Source: Halobaculum sp. MBLA0143 (GTDB lineage: Archaea; Halobacteriota; Halobacteria; Halobacteriales; Haloferacaceae). From it: a DNA stretch of 64,000 nucleotides. The notes beneath the pieces are model-generated. The model did no database searches and was not told the DNA's origin. It worked only from the letters and a program-made list of their open reading frames with translations. The stretch is from assembly GCF_041361465.1 (NCBI RefSeq), contig NZ_JBGKAC010000001.1, forward strand, positions 558,001 to 622,000. Reading direction: 5' to 3'. A program made the position numbers and the translations under genes. Positions 41,413 through 55,946 of the stretch are shown piece by piece. Each line of letters starts with the position of its first letter. Position 1 is the stretch's first letter.

Positions 41413-42540
41413 TCAGATCACATCCATCTCGTCGAGCCGCTCGGGGAGGTACGTCTCCGTCACGAAGTCCAGCCCCTGGGAAGCCAGTGACTGTTGTTCG
41501 GCTTTCCTCTCCAAGTCGAGTTGGAGCTGGATCTGTTCTTCCCAGAACTCCGTCTGGAAGCGGGGGTCTTCCAGCTCCGACTCCAAGGCGTTCACGTCGG
41601 AGTCCGACAACGGATCCGTCGGGAGGTCGTAGTCGACGATGTCCTGCGGTCGGATACCGACGAACTCCGCCTCGGGGGTGGCGAGGTACTCCGAGAGGTG
41701 AGCGGACTTGATGGAGCCGTAGGCGACGGAGCCGTAGATCCGGTACGACCACGGGTCACTGTCCGTGAACACCACCACCGGCACACTGAGTTCGTCGTGG
41801 ACCCGTTTGGTGATCCGACGGGTCGCACGGGCGGGCTGGCCCTTGAGGTGGACGACCAGACAGTCGTACGCCTCGTCGAACCCGTTCTCGATCAGCCGGT
41901 CGCGCATCCCGCCGGTCTCGACGGCCAACGCGAACTCGATGTCGTGGTCGAGGAACTCGATCATGTCCGGGTTGTTCGGAATCTGGTAGCCACCCTCGCC
42001 CACGTCCTCCTGGCAGTGGATGACCCGCTCCCCCCGGCGGGTCTGCTCGCGCAGCTTCAACGGCCCCATCAGCGTCGCGCCGGACTCCTCGGGCCGCATG
42101 TGGAAGTCCTCGCGGGTGACCCCCGACACCACCTCTAAGTCCTCCACCAACTGGTTGGACTCGTCCTGGCTGTCGAACTGCGCTTCCTCGGAGTCCCACG
42201 ACTCCGAGAGGTAGTACAGCTCCCGCAGCGTCGACGACCGGTCTTCCGCGAGCTGTTGATCGAGGAACTCCACCGTGTAGATGGACTTCAACAGCTTCCG
42301 GGCGCCCCGGACGGAGTTGGCCGACCGCGTGGACGTGCGGTCACCGTACACCCACACGTCCGACTCCTCGTCGTACTCGATGTTGCTCTTCGTCCGGGTG
42401 GGTAGAGACAGCGAGGGCACGTCGCCGGACTCGAACTGCTCGTACAGCTCCGAGGCCAGTGACAGCAGCTCCTCGCGGGCCCGTTGTTCGTTCAGTCGCG
42501 TTCCGTCGTCCGTCTCGTCCGCGTCTGTGTCCGTGCTCAT
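41413..42540 (-). CDS. top6A: DNA topoisomerase VI subunit A
   Basis: This 375-residue subunit cuts both DNA strands. The 5Y-CAP domain has the catalytic tyrosine in [11 protein letters not shown] (Tyr109 or Tyr110), and the Toprim metal site is in the region [15 protein letters not shown] and [22 protein letters not shown] (D-x-D). It is homologous to Spo11. The ATG overlaps the stop of top6B by four bases (ATGA), ensuring balanced production. The acidic N-terminal 15 residues are a haloarchaeal feature. Confidence 0.97.
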
Positions 42541-45500
42541 GCGTCCGTCTCCGTGGTGAGTTTCTCGTCTGTGACGCCGTCTACGCTCAGTTCGACCGTG
42601 GCGTCCGTCGGGAGGTCGACGGCGACCGTCTCCGTCTCGCCGCCGGCCACCTCCGGGTGCCACTTCAGGAACCACTCGCCGTCCACCTCGACCACGGTCG
42701 CCCCCTCCGGGGTCTCCGCCGGCTCGGCGGACAACACGGCGGTCACGTCCGGCGACTCCGTCGTGTCCGTGTGGTTGCGGACCGCGACAGTGACCGTCTC
42801 CCCGTCGCGTTCCGTTTCGACGGCGACGTTGTTCATGATTCGGGCGAGCGCGCCGCCGATCTCCGGCCGGTCGCGGTCGGTCACCTCCGCAACCTTCTCG
42901 GCCATCTCCGGGAGGATTCGGCCGAGCACGTCCTGCTTCTGGCGGCGCTTCCGGAGCGACCGCCGCTCGTTGAGGAACGACTTCAGGTCTCGGGCGGCCT
43001 CCCGGATCGCCAGTTCGATCTCGTCTTCGATCTCCGGCACGTTCGCCACGGCGTCTTTCGACTCGCTCGTGAACGGGACGTTGGTGGAGGCGACGTGGAC
43101 GCTGATGACCGCCGGCCCGTTCGGCAGCCCGCTGCCGCCGGGGTGGTCCAGCCCGTAGTTGCGCCAACCGATCCGTTTGACCACGTCCGTCGTCGCACAC
43201 GCGCCGCGCTGGTAGACGAGCGGCACCCGGTTGGCGAACCGCAACACGTCCACCTGGCCGCCGTCCTCCAGCTCGCCGCCGTAGGCGATCCCCGCCTCCA
43301 CGACGAACGGGTCACCGCCGCTCACCTCCGCGTCGCGGGTGGCGGCCGCGTAGAAGTCGGCGTCGAACTCCTTGCGGAGCCCCTCCTCGACGAGTTCCTC
43401 CGTGATCGGTGCCAGACAGTCCGTCGGGGGCGAGATCACGTCTGTCGCCCGCATCGCCTCTAGGAGCGCCGACGCCGTGTCCCGCTCGCCGGCCACCGTC
43501 GACACCTTCGGCGGGTCGTCCGGCACCGCGACCGTCCGGTCCCACAGCGCCTCCGTCACGTTCTCCCGGGCGGTGTCGCCGAACGTGGCGTCGTCGTACT
43601 CCTGCGTGTCGTCTGCGGCACCGTCGACGTACCCGCGGAGCCGGGCGCGGGTGAGCCGGTGGCCGTCGTCGTGGTCCGCTATCCGGCGGGCGAGCCGCGT
43701 CGCGACGCCGTGGACCACCTCGTCGTCCTTCTGGGTGGTCGTCGCGTCGTCAACGACCGTGTACAGGTCCGGCGTGAGCAGGTCGAACTCACCGCCGTCC
43801 TCGCGGCGGTCGGCGCCCGCCGAGACATCGATCGTCTCGCCGAACGCCGTCAGCGCCGCCCACGCCGCCGCCACGGCGTTCTCGCGGACGGTGTCACCGA
43901 ACGTCGTGTCGTACTCTTCGGCCACGTCGTCGGCGACTGTGCCGACCACGTCGACGACCTGCGAGCGGCTCGTCCGCTCGCGGCTCTGGAGAGTGTCCGC
44001 CACCCGGTCGGCGAACGCCGCCGTCGCCTCCGCGCCCTTGTTGGCGACCGCGTCCTCGACGGCCCGCCCGAGGTCGACCGGCTCCGCCGACCCGGGAGCG
44101 CTCCAACCCAACTCCCGGCCGACGTGCCGGTCCATGAACCCCTCGATGATGCTCGCGGCGGACTTCTTGCCCACGCGGGTGAACTCCTCCTGGAGGAAGC
44201 CGGACAGCGAGTACGACTCCGTCGACTCCAGCATCTTGATGAGCGTCCCCAGCTCCACCCCGTGGGGGTGGGGACGGATCTCCTCCGTCTCTGCCGGAAG
44301 GTCGTCCGTCGCCCGTTCGAACTTCATCGGCTCGTCCAGTCCGGGTTCGTCTAACTCCAGCCGGGCGTGTGGGTTGACGACCGCCGTCTCCTGGATGTAG
44401 TCGCGGAGCTGTGACCGCGCCCGCATGTTCGCCTCCATCTCCAGCTCGATCCGCGTGCCGTAGCGGTCCCACGACCGGTGTTCCTCCCGACGGATGTCCG
44501 GCTCGTTTTCGTCCGTGTCGATGATCAGCTCGAAGTACTGCGCGTCCGACTGTCCCCGAGGGCGCGAGGTGATCTTGGCGGGCTTGCCCGAAGTGAGCTG
44601 AGAGTAGAGTACAGCGGCTGAGATGCCGATACCTTGTTGACCGCGGCTGTTCTTCACACAGAGTCCGCCCTCGTTGGCGACGACGAAGTTCTCGTCGTCG
44701 CCGTTGACGCCGGGCACCGAGATGTCGTAGACGTACTCCGGCGGCTCCGTCTCGGTCACGTCTGTCACCTCCAGCAGACACAGGTCCGTCTCGGTGAACC
44801 CCTGGATACTGTGGAGGGCGTCCCACAGCGACTCCAGCCGTCCCGTCGGCTCGTTGTCCTCGGTGAACAGCCCGTAGTCGGTTAGACGTGTGGTGAAGCG
44901 GTCCGACGGCACGTCCTCGCCCGCCAGTGCGGTCTCGATCCGGTCCCGGTACTCCGCCGCGAACGTCGGGCTGGAGCCGACGCCACAGCCACACAACAGC
45001 CCGGGAATCGTGTCCGGCACCGTCTGGTGTGACGGCTCTCCGACGGCAATCGGCTCCAAGACACGAGTCGGAATCCGTTTGTGTGCTTGTTCTCCGGCCT
45101 CGGTGTGGAGGTCGAACCGGTCACCCAGCGCGGCGTCCTCGCCGTACACCTTCGTCCGGTGCACCTCCGTGTCGCCGTCACCGTACCCGTCGGACGTGGT
45201 CGTCTCGCTAGAGGCGACGACGCCCAGCGAACTCCACAGCGCCGACACCTGTCTGGCGAGGGTCTCGCTCGCGGTCGTGTGTGACAGTTCGTTCGACGGG
45301 TGACTGTCGGAGCCGTCCCCCTCGTGGAGCGCCCGCAGGAACGTCTCTCGGTGCTCCGGCGCTACGTCGAACACGAACCGTGGGACACGCTTGTTCGCGG
45401 CCGCGTCCCCGCAGGCGTCCTCCAAGAACGACGCGAGCGGGCTCCCGAACGCCTTCACCCGTGTCGAGTTCCGTTCCCGCTCGACGGTCGTCGTCTCCGT

Positions 45501-46706
45501 CCCGACGGTCGCCGCGACCGCGGTCTCCGTCGCCTCGACCAACTCCGGCTCGTGTGACCCGAAGGTGAATCCGACCTGGCGGTCGTCCGCGTGTCCCTCC
45601 GCGACGTAGTAGCCCAGCAGTTCCATCAGCTCCTCCGTCACCGGCACGGTCACCGGAACCTCGGTGGGCTCACCGCCGACCTGGTACGTCCGGAGGCGAC
45701 AGTCGCTCGCACGCTCCTCCCAGCCCAGTCGCTTGACCGTCTCGGCCGGGAGGTAGCCCTGCTCGACGTAGTTCGACCGGAAGCTGTCCTTCAGCACGTC
45801 GACGCCGTCGTACCGGTAGTAGTACCGCTTCCGGTCGCTGTCCGGGTTGGGGTACTTCCGGACCGTCTCGCCGGTCTCGATCTCCCGCAGCGTCTCCTCG
45901 TCGAAGCCGTAGACGTACATCCGGCGGTCGGTCAGCTCGTCGACCGTGAGGTGGTTCAGGAGATTGACGGACGTGACCGTCCGACCCGTCTCCGGAAGCT
46001 GCTGGGGGGCGAGAACGACATCGCCGGCGGTCAACTCCGAGGCGGCGACCTCGCGGGTCTCCCCGCGCTCGTCGACGGTGAACACGCTGTGGTCGCCGGT
46101 GACTTCCGTGGTCCGGCCTCTCTGTGTGGTGATCTCGTACGTCGCGGCGTCTGTCTCGTGTCTGATCGCGTGGGTCACGTCCTGCCACGATAGCTCGTGT
46201 GTGTCGCGGTCGAACGACGGCGCGCGGATCTCGTCTGGAATCCGCGCCGTGCTGGCACCCTCCCCCGAGATGTAGGCGTCACACAGTCGACCGATGGGAA
46301 CGGACTCCACCCCACCGTCTCGTTCGATCAGAATCTGTTGATCTGGCGTCAGTGACTGCTCGCGCTTGTGAAATCTCGACCCGTACAGAAGCTTACCGAA
46401 AACTTTCGGCAGTTGTTCTCTCGTGATTCCAGGACCGTTGTCCTCGATGACGAGTCGGTAGTAGTCGCCGAGATCCTCGATTTCGACGTAGATGTCGGGC
46501 ATGACACCGGCCTCCTCGCAGGCGTCGAGCGCGTTGTCGACGCCCTCCTTGACGGCGGTGACGAGCCCGCGAGCGCCCGAGTCGAACCCGAGCATGTGCT
46601 TGTTCTTCTCGAAGAACTCGGCGATGGAGATCTGCCGCTGGCTCTCGGCCAGCTCGTCGGCGATCCCCTCTTCCTCCTCGCCGAGTGTCGACTGGAACGA
46701 GGTCAT
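42537..46706 (-). CDS. top6B: DNA topoisomerase VI subunit B, intein-containing precursor
   Basis: The 1389-residue precursor holds the ATPase subunit of topoisomerase VI, split by an intein at residues 118-686; the spliced protein would have 820 residues. N-extein: GHKL ATPase start with [19 protein letters not shown] (metal-binding Asn) and [25 protein letters not shown]-extein: [18 protein letters not shown] (ATP lid), H2TH-like helices, and the transducer with [20 protein letters not shown] and [13 protein letters not shown] haloarchaeal insert between about residues 870 and 1090 shows two related copies of a [14 protein letters not shown]-like motif. The ATG has a TATA box 25-33 bases upstream. 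Confidence 0.95.
44649..46355 (-). other. LAGLIDADG intein in Top6B (569 residues)
   Basis: The intein begins with Ser118 ([19 protein letters not shown], splicing block A), with block B around TGDHSVFTV. It has two LAGLIDADG-type endonuclease helices, LLGYYVAEG (363-371) and [10 protein letters not shown] (456-465), and ends with block F/G text VYDISVPGV and NEGGLCVKN. Extein residue +1 is Ser687. Removing it joins [10 protein letters not shown] to [10 protein letters not shown]. The residue before the terminal Asn is Lys685 rather than the usual His, so splicing chemistry may be altered. The homing endonuclease appears intact. Boundaries are read from homology of the exteins. Confidence 0.92.
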
Positions 46707-52663: not shown

Positions 52664-53212
52664 GTGACGACTGTGGCGTCGGGTAACCACGACGGGGGGG
52701 TCGTCGTCCGGGAGGCGTGTCGTGAGGACCTGCTGTCCGTCTACCGGATCGAGAAGACCGCGTTCGAACAGCCGTGGCCGTACGCGGCGTTCGAGCGACT
52801 GCTGTCTGCGCCGGCGTTCCTGGTCGCCGAGCGGGACACCGACCGCCCGCCCGTCGACCCGGCGGCCGAGCAGTACGCCGACGGCTCCGGAATCGTCGGC
52901 TACGTCGTCGGCGACGTGACGCCGAACCACGGCCGCGACATCGGCCACATCAAAGACATCGCCGTCAGACCGGACGCCCAGGGGAGCGGGCTGGGGCGGC
53001 GGCTGCTCCGACGGGGGCTCCACCGACTCGCCGCCGCCGGGGCGAGCGTCGTGAAGTTAGAGGTCCGGGCGTCGAACACCCGCGCACAACGGCTGTACGA
53101 CTCCGAGGGGTTCGAGCCCGTCCGGACGGAGCCGCGGTACTACGGCGACGGGGAGGCGGCGTACGTGATGGCGCTGGAGTTGGGCGACTGGATCCGGGGC
53201 GAACGGGGGTGA
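52664..53212 (+). CDS. rimI: Ribosomal protein alanine N-acetyltransferase-like protein (RimI)
   Basis: This 182-residue GNAT enzyme has VVVREACREDLLSVYRIEKTAFEQPWPYAAFERLL, typical of RimI, then GYVVGDVTPN, the acetyl-CoA-binding loop DIAVRPDAQGSGLGRRLLRRGL (R/Q-x2-G-x-G/A) and KLEVRASNTRAQRLYDSEGF. Archaeal RimI/Ard1-type enzymes acetylate N-termini of many proteins. GTG start with a TATA box 23-31 bases upstream. It converges on the methyltransferase gene. Confidence 0.9.
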   Translation: MTTVASGNHDGGVVVREACREDLLSVYRIEKTAFEQPWPYAAFERLLSAPAFLVAERDTDRPPVDPAAEQYADGSGIVGYVVGDVTPNHGRDIGHIKDIAVRPDAQGSGLGRRLLRRGLHRLAAAGASVVKLEVRASNTRAQRLYDSEGFEPVRTEPRYYGDGEAAYVMALELGDWIRGERG

Positions 53213-53218
53213 CCTCGG

Positions 53219-54424
53219 TCAGTCGGCGGAGTCGAGCGTCGCCTGCTTGGCGAAGCCGTCCGTCGTCGCCGACGATTCGAACTCCGACAGCGAGCGGCCA
53301 CCGGACCGGAGCCGGTGGACGCGCTCGCGGTCTCCACGCGACAGCGTCTCGCCGAACACGTCTCTCCGGAGGTAGTAGCCGACGGCCTCGGCCAGATACG
53401 GCGGCACGGCGTTCCCGATCTGTCGGCGAACGGAGACGAGCCCACCACTGAACCGGTAGTCGTCCGGAAACGTCTGGAGCCGTGCCCCCTCGCGGGGCGT
53501 GAGCCCGCGGTCCTCGAACGGATGGATACACCGGGCGCTCGACGGCTTGGACATGTTCGAGGTGATCGCAACTGCCGGCGCCGTCGAGTCCAGCCGAGAG
53601 TAGGAGTTGTGGTAGCCAGACGACGGCTGTAGCTCCGCTGGAATCGCCGTCCGGTCGCCGCCGTCTGGGATGTGTGAGATCATCTCCACCATGTCGTCGC
53701 TGTGGTTCGCAGCGACGTGTGCAGACAGTTTCGTCGTGTCGCCGCGGAGATCCGCCTGTAGCGCGGTCTCTGGCTGTGCCGTGTACTGGGTGGCTTCCTC
53801 GCCGGGAGCGACGCGCGGCAGATCGCCGATGGCGTCTGCGACGCCCGGTTCGGAGATTGTGTCGAGATCGAACTCGTCGAACGGACTCTCGGCAACGTCA
53901 GACTTCGAGGCCAACACGAGGAGCCGTCGGCGGTGCTGTGGGACGCCGAACTCCGATGCCTCGACCACGCGGTGTGTCACGTCGTAGCCGAGACGGTCGA
54001 ACGAGGCCGTCACCGCCTCCAGAAACTCTCCGCCGGCGGTCTTCTGCATCCCACGGACGTTCTCGAACAACACCGCCGTCGGATCGAGCGCTGCCACCCA
54101 GTCGACGAAGTTCTCGAACAGGTGATTCCGCTCGTCGGAGCCATCCGGGCTGACAACCTCCGAGAACCCCTGACACGGCGGCCCCCCGACGACGAGATCG
54201 ACACGGTCGCGGCCGACGACTTCTGGGATCTCGGCCAGCGCTACCTCGCGGATGTCGCCCGAGAGGTCTGTGGCCGCGAGCCCGTCCCGGTTGTCTGTGA
54301 ACGTCTGGCGGGCGTCTTCGTCCACCTCGACCGCGTGGACCAACTCGAAGCCCGCCCGTTCGAGCCCGACGGACAGCCCACCTGCGCCCGCAAACAGGTC
54401 GACGTAGCTCAGCTCTCCGGCCAT
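53219..54424 (-). CDS. C5-cytosine DNA methyltransferase
   Basis: This 401-residue enzyme methylates cytosine at C5. Motif I is YVDLFAGAGGLSVGL (about 7-21), motif IV GGPPCQGFS with the catalytic Cys84, motif VI ENVRG (121-125), motif VIII QHRRR (163-167) and motif X RQIGNAVPPYLAEAVGYY near the end. The target-recognition region lies between about 190 and 325. It is divergent from the regulator-nuclease pair at 54545-55946, so it is most likely the protective methyltransferase of a type II restriction system. The ATG at 54424 is 25-32 bases from a TATA box. Confidence 0.93.
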   Translation of the reverse strand: MAGELSYVDLFAGAGGLSVGLERAGFELVHAVEVDEDARQTFTDNRDGLAATDLSGDIREVALAEIPEVVGRDRVDLVVGGPPCQGFSEVVSPDGSDERNHLFENFVDWVAALDPTAVLFENVRGMQKTAGGEFLEAVTASFDRLGYDVTHRVVEASEFGVPQHRRRLLVLASKSDVAESPFDEFDLDTISEPGVADAIGDLPRVAPGEEATQYTAQPETALQADLRGDTTKLSAHVAANHSDDMVEMISHIPDGGDRTAIPAELQPSSGYHNSYSRLDSTAPAVAITSNMSKPSSARCIHPFEDRGLTPREGARLQTFPDDYRFSGGLVSVRRQIGNAVPPYLAEAVGYYLRRDVFGETLSRGDRERVHRLRSGGRSLSEFESSATTDGFAKQATLDSAD

Positions 54425-54448
54425 CACACGTCTTTGTCGCCAGATGCT

Positions 54449-54456
54449 GTTTAAGG
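54449..54456 (-). promoter_or_regulatory. TATA-like box for the methyltransferase gene
   Basis: The minus strand reads CCTTAAAC, 25-32 bases before ATG 54424. Confidence 0.5.
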
Positions 54457-54475
54457 ATTCGCACCAGGGCAATAG

Positions 54476-54508
54476 TTGGTAACTGTCTGGTAACCATTTG
54501 GTAGCTTT
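54476..54508. promoter_or_regulatory. Three 11-bp iterons between divergent RM promoters
   Basis: Three direct repeats follow without gaps: TTGGTAACTGT (54476), CTGGTAACCAT (54487) and TTGGTAGCTTT (54498). The common core is YTGGTARC with a period of 11, one helical turn, so a protein would see all three on the same face. They abut the TATA-like box of the regulator operon and lie about 20 bases from the methyltransferase TATA box. The small regulator encoded next to them is the obvious candidate ligand. Confidence 0.65.
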
Positions 54509-54509
54509 T

Positions 54510-54518
54510 TCTTTACTC
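54510..54518 (+). promoter_or_regulatory. TATA-like box for the regulator-nuclease operon
   Basis: TCTTTACTC is 27-35 bases before GTG 54545 and directly follows the third iteron. Confidence 0.45.
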
Positions 54519-54544
54519 GGTGCTCGTAATGAGTAGACGGCAAG

Positions 54545-54847
54545 GTGACTGCGACAGTGAACGCCGGAGACGACGGCGAGGCGGAGCTACTCGAACTCGT
54601 CGCGTACGTCAGTAGCTCGAAGTACCGTCGTCTGGTGACCGAGTGTCTCGATGCTCGTCCGAGACAGCCGAGTCGAATCGCAGACGAGAACGACCTGGCG
54701 AGACCACACGTTAGCCGCGCTCTCGCCGAACTGCGCGAGAGGCAGTTAGTCCGCTCGCACTCGTCGGACTCCAGAGCCAAGCTCTACACTCTGACAGATT
54801 TAGGCGACGAAGTCGCAACACGACTCGAGGGGCGTTCGGATGACTGA
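54545..54847 (+). CDS. Winged-helix transcriptional regulator of the RM locus
   Basis: This 100-residue protein has one winged-helix domain: ELLELVAYVSSSKYRRLVTECLDARPRQPSRIADENDLARPHVSRALAELRERQLVR is helix-turn-helix with the recognition helix ARPHVSRALAELRER, followed by the wing SDSRAKLYTLTDLGDEVATRL. It belongs broadly to MarR/ArsR-type DNA-binding proteins, not to the HTH-XRE type of classical restriction controllers. The reading frame overlaps the nuclease gene by eight bases. By position it should control both divergent promoters through the iterons upstream. GTG start. Confidence 0.75.
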   Translation: MTATVNAGDDGEAELLELVAYVSSSKYRRLVTECLDARPRQPSRIADENDLARPHVSRALAELRERQLVRSHSSDSRAKLYTLTDLGDEVATRLEGRSDD

Positions 54848-55946
54848 CCCGGAACTCCCGACGGAGGCCCGCGAATTTCTCTCCGACCACTTCCCCGAAC
54901 GGGTGCCGGTGTTCGACGGGACGCCAGCAGAGCGTGACACAGTCCAGTCGATGGTGGCGACTGTCGCCGACTCACTCCACGACAACGTCGGGGAACTAGG
55001 AGTCGCACTCGACTTTCTGATCGTCGCGGAAGAACTATCACAGGTGGACGGCTGGCGGTCAGGGTTCGACCCGGATATCACGACAGACGACATCTTCGAC
55101 CGATACGATACGAAGGACACGAAGACGCTGACGGTCCTCTATGATGGCAATCAGTACGGGATTCGCTCTGTTCAGAACGAGATCCGTGACCTGTTCATCT
55201 ACGATCTCCGACGGACGAACTTCCCGAGTTCGCCAGGACACCACACTGGAAACTGGCGTGACTACAGTGATCTCCTGGAACAGGCGTTCAGACTCTCTCG
55301 GTCCGGCCGATTCGAAGCTACGGTGCGGCTGTTCGAAGTTGGACTGGAGAAGCTGCAAGAGAAGCGTCTAGAGTCGAGAGAACCGGCGTTTCCGACACCG
55401 TTCTCTGCCGTCGTCCGCGAGTACGAGCGGAGTCATCCGGACGAGAACGGCGGACTGGCGTTTCAGGCGATTGCGTACGGCTACAGTAAAGCCGAGTGGT
55501 CTCACCTCTCGTTCCGTGCCAGTAAAGTCCGCACTGGCTCGTCGAGACAGAACCGATACGGAGACATCGACGGATTCCTCGGCCCGGATCTGATGATTTC
55601 GGTCGAGGTAAAGGACCTTCTGATCGACGAGTCGAACGTCGACGGGGAGCTTGGAACGACAATACAACTCGCGGAAGACACGACGACAGTTCCGATTGCG
55701 ATGTGTCGAGAACTGTCTGACGGAGCGAGAAATCACCTCCGGTCGCGTGGTGTGGAACCACTCGACGACGGCGACCTCCTCTCTGAACTACGCCGGTGGG
55801 ACTACCACAAGCAGAATCGAGCTGTTCAGGCGACACTTCACTATCTCGCCAACGTGGAGGAGAATCCCGATGCCGTCCAGCGGTTCCTCCAGTTCATCGA
55901 AGAAGTCGACGAGGACAACCGCGCACTGGATCACCTCATCGACTGA
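54840..55946 (+). CDS. Putative type II restriction endonuclease, PD-(D/E)XK
   Basis: This 368-residue protein is not named, but residues 238-259 read QNRYGDIDGFLGPDLMISVEVK: Asp242, Asp244, Pro-Asp 249-250, Glu256 and Lys258 form a credible PD-(D/E)XK catalytic site (D ... E-x-K). Just before it is SHLSFRASKVRTGSSRQN, likely part of the same fold. The rest is helical with no other domain. It is co-translated with the winged-helix regulator and divergent from the C5 methyltransferase, and A/T content at third positions is higher than in flanking genes, all typical of an imported restriction-modification system. The target sequence is unknown. Confidence 0.7.
   Translation: MTDPELPTEAREFLSDHFPERVPVFDGTPAERDTVQSMVATVADSLHDNVGELGVALDFLIVAEELSQVDGWRSGFDPDITTDDIFDRYDTKDTKTLTVLYDGNQYGIRSVQNEIRDLFIYDLRRTNFPSSPGHHTGNWRDYSDLLEQAFRLSRSGRFEATVRLFEVGLEKLQEKRLESREPAFPTPFSAVVREYERSHPDENGGLAFQAIAYGYSKAEWSHLSFRASKVRTGSSRQNRYGDIDGFLGPDLMISVEVKDLLIDESNVDGELGTTIQLAEDTTTVPIAMCRELSDGARNHLRSRGVEPLDDGDLLSELRRWDYHKQNRAVQATLHYLANVEENPDAVQRFLQFIEEVDEDNRALDHLID

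Follow-up and report, generated by a model that had tools for sequence, protein, structure and literature searches.

A probable horizontally mobile haloarchaeal Type II restriction-modification unit with a proposed winged-helix controller

Restriction genes that enter a new cell must somehow avoid killing it, a classic problem for which many bacterial restriction-modification (RM) systems employ C-proteins of the HTH-XRE type. A locus in the haloarchaeon Halobaculum sp. MBLA0143 raises the question whether a small DNA-binding protein of another kind could play such a part in archaea. Within the window, i.e., the whole stretch of 64,000 nucleotides that was analyzed, the ORF calls delineate an RM unit spanning positions 53219-55946, in which a methyltransferase gene (M) is divergent from an operon encoding a winged-helix protein (wHTH) and, downstream of it, a predicted restriction endonuclease (R), with several candidate regulatory elements in the spacer:

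53219..54424, minus strand: M, C5-cytosine DNA methyltransferase, 401 aa, ATG start (PF00145, TIGR00675 and PADLOC matches)
54450..54461, minus strand: predicted TATA/BRE promoter of M, TTTAAGGATTCG on the plus strand, CGAATCC-TTAAA on the minus strand
54477..54482, plus strand: operator-like box 1, TGGTAA
54488..54493, plus strand: operator-like box 2, TGGTAA, 11 bp past box 1
54499..54504, plus strand: operator-like box 3, TGGTAG, 11 bp past box 2
54511..54517, plus strand: predicted TATA-like element of the wHTH-R operon, CTTTACT (from sequence)
54545..54847, plus strand: wHTH, 100-aa winged-helix protein, proposed controller, GTG start
54840..55946, plus strand: R, 368-aa predicted Type II restriction endonuclease, D242/D244/E256/K258 (PADLOC match, conserved residues)

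The ORFs agree with the first-pass annotation, which had described a C5-cytosine methyltransferase divergent from a two-gene operon for a 100-residue winged-helix protein and a 368-residue protein, the two genes overlapping by eight bases; wHTH (54545-54847) is the upstream gene and R (54840-55946) the downstream one.

Genomic setting and linkage of M and R

By sequence, the window belongs to a haloarchaeal chromosome with approximately 68% G+C, and the genes for TopVIB, GyrB, GyrA, DnaJ and DnaG are located nearby. The gene for topoisomerase VI subunit B (42537-46706) looks intein-bearing, the candidate intein being an extra block that ends in CVKN ahead of the conserved NSRGQQGIG segment. 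The RM unit is flanked by a GNAT acetyltransferase gene that ends at 53212 and a small ORF that begins after ~56015. Across the wHTH and R genes, the G+C content falls to 57-59%, as expected of acquired DNA. In one genome of the same genus (G001), the acetyltransferase gene and the next gene flank a different small ORF, and the RM genes are absent. A second same-genus genome, the draft G002 (L104, contig C141, 2194-3457), carries an intact M at the same site and is 82% identical to the window at the DNA level across 3 kb including M; beside the retained M, neither its promoter nor wHTH nor R is present, although an assembly error could also account for this absence given that the draft is fragmented. 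The empty site and the M-only site together imply that the RM unit is strain-variable and that, in G002, R was lost and M retained, an order that would be expected if the toxicity of the unit resides in R. The unit is best interpreted as a horizontally mobile haloarchaeal Type II RM unit.

The same set of 391 haloarchaeal genomes was searched with M (threshold E<=1e-80) and with R. Close homologs of M were detected in 20 genomes and homologs of R in 22; R is present in all 20 M-containing genomes, so that M without R was never found in this sample, and the two R-only genomes harbor only remnants of R, in which the open frames span 131-144 codons. The M homologs are 65-73% identical and adjoin R. 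Where both genes fell within the retrieved stretch, they are neighbors, either divergent or in an M-then-R tandem, and in one Halorubrum locus approximately 4 kb separates them. The first-pass annotation had named nuclease homologs found mostly without a methyltransferase as the pattern that would speak against it; the observed pattern is the opposite, with M beside R in 20 of the 22 genomes. A DNA methyltransferase gene adjacent to the gene for a separate restriction endonuclease is the arrangement of Type II systems.

The methyltransferase, the nuclease and their target site

M matches the full domain of PF00145 in Pfam (1.8e-63), TIGR00675 (dcm) in NCBIfam (4e-54) and the PADLOC MTase_II model (5.8e-103). 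All the motifs of C5-cytosine methyltransferases that were sought, namely I, IV (PCQ), VI (ENV), VIII and X, are found, including the segments FAGAGG, PPCQGFS, ENV, QHRRR and GNAVPP. As the start of M, we prefer the ATG at 54424 to the TTG at 54472: a TATA/BRE-like promoter (CGAA...TTAA), conserved among the divergent homologous loci compared and located ~26-31 bp before the ATG in these loci, fits a leaderless message. The promoter sequence T.TTAA...TTCG is invariant in all four loci that contain wHTH (see below) and recognizable in divergent loci without it. The distance between promoter and ATG, ~26 bp in the window, suggests leaderless, constitutive expression of M.

For R, no family match was found in Pfam or NCBIfam, and the first-pass annotation had left the nuclease family unrecognized. 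This can now be amended: R matches the PADLOC REase_II model PDLC03399 (E=4.5e-28), which also matches all 21 R homologs. Among the homologs, the motif KVRTGSSRQ.RYGDIDG...GPDLMISVEVKD shows almost no variation; its GDIDG segment holds D242 and D244 and is followed by E256-V-K258. These four residues, which had been proposed from the window alone as a PD-(D/E)XK-like site, are strictly invariant in 21 homologs down to 28% identity, and a structure model of moderate confidence tends to agree with a PD-(D/E)XK fold, the absence of which from a predicted structure was the other pattern that the first-pass annotation had named as speaking against it. The 28% homolog is a Microvirga plasmid protein whose gene immediately follows one for a DNA methyltransferase, and the invariance of the four residues in a set that includes this bacterial protein argues that the PD-(D/E)XK motif is no chance match. 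One of the homologs, the Halorubrum coriense nuclease (L008, 6001-7194), shows an internal duplication of ~30 residues in which some bases are undetermined, probably an assembly artefact. When viral contigs were scanned with the R alignment and with the provirus (see below) and bacterial versions of R, no relatives were detected.

The AlphaFold model of R has a moderate overall pLDDT of 69.9, which falls below 50 at residues 230-251, the loop that holds D242 and D244, and comprises a strand (253-262), a helix (267-280) and a strand (284-292). The best match of this model among solved structures is EcoT38I, from an Escherichia coli P2 prophage (PDB 7e8r, 7edb), with Z 9.8 over 155 residues at 3.6 A, and the structures ranked below it, BspD6I, AspBHI and MspJI, are likewise restriction enzymes; Foldseek with the same model gave no match at E <= 0.001. 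EcoT38I is also the top PDB sequence-profile match of R, a weak one (E=0.025, 47 positions) in which the catalytic D...EVKD is aligned, and the sequence similarity between the two is very low, at 8-10% in the structural alignment. Judging from these sequence and structure comparisons, R is a predicted PD-(D/E)XK Type II restriction enzyme and is probably EcoT38I-like.

M would methylate C5 of cytosine at its target site and so protect the host, and R would cut the same site when unmethylated. EcoT38I itself recognizes GRGCYC. Palindrome avoidance was compared among three carriers of the RM unit and one genome lacking it, each sampled over 260-400 kb, and no palindrome was avoided solely in the carriers; the palindrome counts revealed no special avoidance of GRGCYC or CGGCCG in the window genome. 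In 400 kb sampled from this genome, TCGCGA is strongly avoided (observed/expected 0.15 versus 0.72 in a same-genus genome), and CACGTG is avoided as well (0.16 versus 0.42). The avoidance of TCGCGA is not common to the two other carriers.

The winged-helix protein and the TGGTAA boxes

The wHTH protein matches the Pfam family HVO_A0261_N (PF25213; 2.4e-10, above the cut-off) as well as HTH_27. No HTH-XRE match was obtained, and the Pfam and NCBIfam searches returned winged-helix and related HTH regulator families. The protein had been described in the first-pass annotation as MarR/ArsR-like: the winged helix is borne out, the assignment to MarR or ArsR proper is not. A single-sequence structure model (pLDDT 56.6) is too poor for use. 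A wHTH gene lies between M and R in only four of the 20 loci (the window and the genomes G112, G141 and G046), all divergent and spread over three families, and the four proteins all match both HVO_A0261_N and HTH_27. The M-R gap is ~420 nt in these loci and ~120-230 nt in most of the divergent loci without wHTH, where it is too short for such a gene. Considering that 16 of the 20 loci dispense with it, wHTH is inessential for establishing the RM unit. In the genome G362, a different small ORF of ~85 aa (L013, ~949-1200) occupies a 502-nt M-R gap without wHTH, and could encode another kind of regulator.

Relatives of wHTH are present in 164 of the 391 genomes, which indicates that it derives from a common haloarchaeal stock and, since these relatives are common away from RM genes, that it might also act elsewhere. 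The best four matches are exactly the four copies linked to M and R. Inspection of the flanking ORFs by eye placed none of the nearest single-domain relatives outside the four loci beside RM-like genes. The RM-linked proteins show 38-56% identity to the window copy, and the recognition-helix residues HVSR..L.EL are conserved among them.

In all four wHTH-containing spacers, TGGTAA boxes recur in tandem every 11 bp (TTGGTAAn5TGGTAA), followed 11 bp further on by a third box, TGGTAG, in the window genome and in G141. The boxes are located clear of the M promoter, and in each of the four loci the last one begins 10-13 bp ahead of the TATA-like element of the wHTH-R operon (12 bp in the window). 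None of the other M-R spacers that were checked, 16 in all, has the tandem pattern; their best matches differ from it at 2-6 positions, and the nearest, with two mismatches, is the degenerate TGGTATTTCGATGGAAA in G108 (L025), possibly a relic operator left after loss of the controller. Among the 391 genomes, the 18-base pattern TTGGTAAN5TGGTAA has 13 exact sites, four of which are the M-wHTH spacers of the wHTH loci, and a reversed control pattern has ~6. By our arithmetic, ~9 background sites in roughly 1.4 Gb correspond to a chance expectation below 0.001 for all M-R spacers together, and the association of boxes with wHTH (4/4 versus 0/16) has a probability of ~1/4845 if shared ancestry is ignored. 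In the R tree, the four wHTH-linked R proteins form no resolved clade, which is compatible with a single origin of the four loci, so that inheritance could explain part of the association. Nevertheless, in the four-way spacer alignment, the principal blocks of invariant sequence coincide with the boxes and the M promoter, and the remainder is largely unalignable; together with the divergence of the wHTH proteins, this makes the boxes look selected. No wider regulon is claimed, given that the nine other exact sites lie away from wHTH relatives.

The co-occurrence of the boxes with wHTH suggests that this protein very probably regulates its own operon by binding them, in the manner of C-proteins. 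The first-pass proposal of a winged-helix controller for the RM genes thus gains an operator-like repeat that co-occurs exactly with wHTH, but not generality, such a controller being found in four of the 20 loci. We consider it likely that the locus is an RM unit in which wHTH controls its own operon through the boxes, an assessment that extends to control in either direction.

Proposed mode of control and comparison with known systems

We propose that M is expressed from its own strong-looking leaderless promoter. The wHTH protein would bind two or three helically phased TGGTAA boxes abutting the wHTH-R promoter and would thereby govern the production of both R and itself. By analogy with C-proteins, we regard autogenous activation as the most likely mode, in which case R would rise only once wHTH accumulates, giving M a head start. 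This mode is favored because the haloarchaeal activator GvpE likewise uses a site directly adjoining BRE: in a divergent promoter region, it acts through a two-part element of roughly 20 nt, whose short distance to BRE is essential (PMC4390858). GvpE differs from wHTH in that it has been characterized as leucine-zipper-like and acts on gas vesicle genes.

A close second is autorepression, in which wHTH would simply cap the wHTH-R operon of the same RM unit by blocking TFB/BRE at the last box; we give this reading somewhat less than an even chance. A protein bound 10-13 bp before the TATA-like element, where the last box begins in all four loci, could occlude BRE, and there is a precedent in RptR (RMS-proximal transcriptional regulator), which, similarly to the role proposed for wHTH, is a small regulator of RM genes outside the C-proteins, is dedicated to these genes and binds serial direct repeats in its own promoter (PMC12255303), but is a bacterial repressor of Type I RM islands that recognizes TAGCTA sites. 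Autorepression would, however, make R high early in a naive cell, a dangerous order of events unless the basal promoter is weak, and GvpE provides a haloarchaeal case in which boxes at such a position activate (PMC4390858).

It is improbable that wHTH is a captured host-type regulator without a specific role in RM and that the boxes serve another factor. The wide spread of wHTH relatives in haloarchaea and the 16 loci that lack wHTH are compatible with such a capture, but not readily so are the strict co-occurrence with the boxes in four divergent loci from three families, the overlap of the wHTH and R genes, and the conservation of the recognition helix alongside the boxes. The idea that M is a regulatory orphan and that its neighbor of 368 aa is not the cognate restriction enzyme, as the M-only site in G002 might suggest, is highly improbable given that M never occurs without R in the 391-genome sample, that the R homologs all match a Type II restriction enzyme model, and that even the distant bacterial relative of R directly adjoins a DNA methyltransferase gene.

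Returning to autogenous control by wHTH, the closest parallels are the C-protein systems such as PvuII, BamHI and Esp1396I, in which the gene for a small DNA-binding protein is likewise located directly upstream of R and operator sites precede its own promoter, as the candidate boxes do here. These systems combine an HTH-XRE protein with C-boxes, whereas here an HVO_A0261_N winged helix is combined with direct TGGTAA boxes of 11-bp period and an archaeal TATA/BRE promoter. In the EcoT38I system, M and R are reportedly arranged head to head on the prophage, with a small C gene between them that partly overlaps R; the EcoT38I controller is an ordinary HTH C-protein, unlike wHTH. The 8-nt overlap of wHTH and R parallels the spacing or overlap of C and R genes within +/-20 nt that is typical of C-controlled systems (PMC2997769). 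An orthologous divergent pair of M (67%) and R (56%) is encoded by the Haloferax virus Halfgib1 (MW344766, L032), an inducible pleolipovirus provirus (PMC7911831), but this pair has neither a wHTH gene nor TGGTAA boxes. The annotation of this virus lists R simply as hypothetical.

Our search of the openly accessible literature found no description of winged-helix controllers of archaeal RM systems. The RM unit belongs to a known type, and the module of wHTH plus boxes is a new form of the controller idea. There is an about even chance that haloarchaea have evolved a controller class of their own, in which a single-domain HVO_A0261-type wHTH and phased boxes next to BRE would act as an autogenous switch and time nuclease expression via TFB/TBP, matching C-proteins in function but being of independent evolutionary origin. 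The natural loci with and without wHTH are ready comparisons, and haloarchaea are genetically tractable for tests. If borne out, a wHTH dedicated to RM control and paired with its own conserved operator would solve the problem of admitting restriction genes into a new cell independently, by way of the archaeal basal transcription factors.
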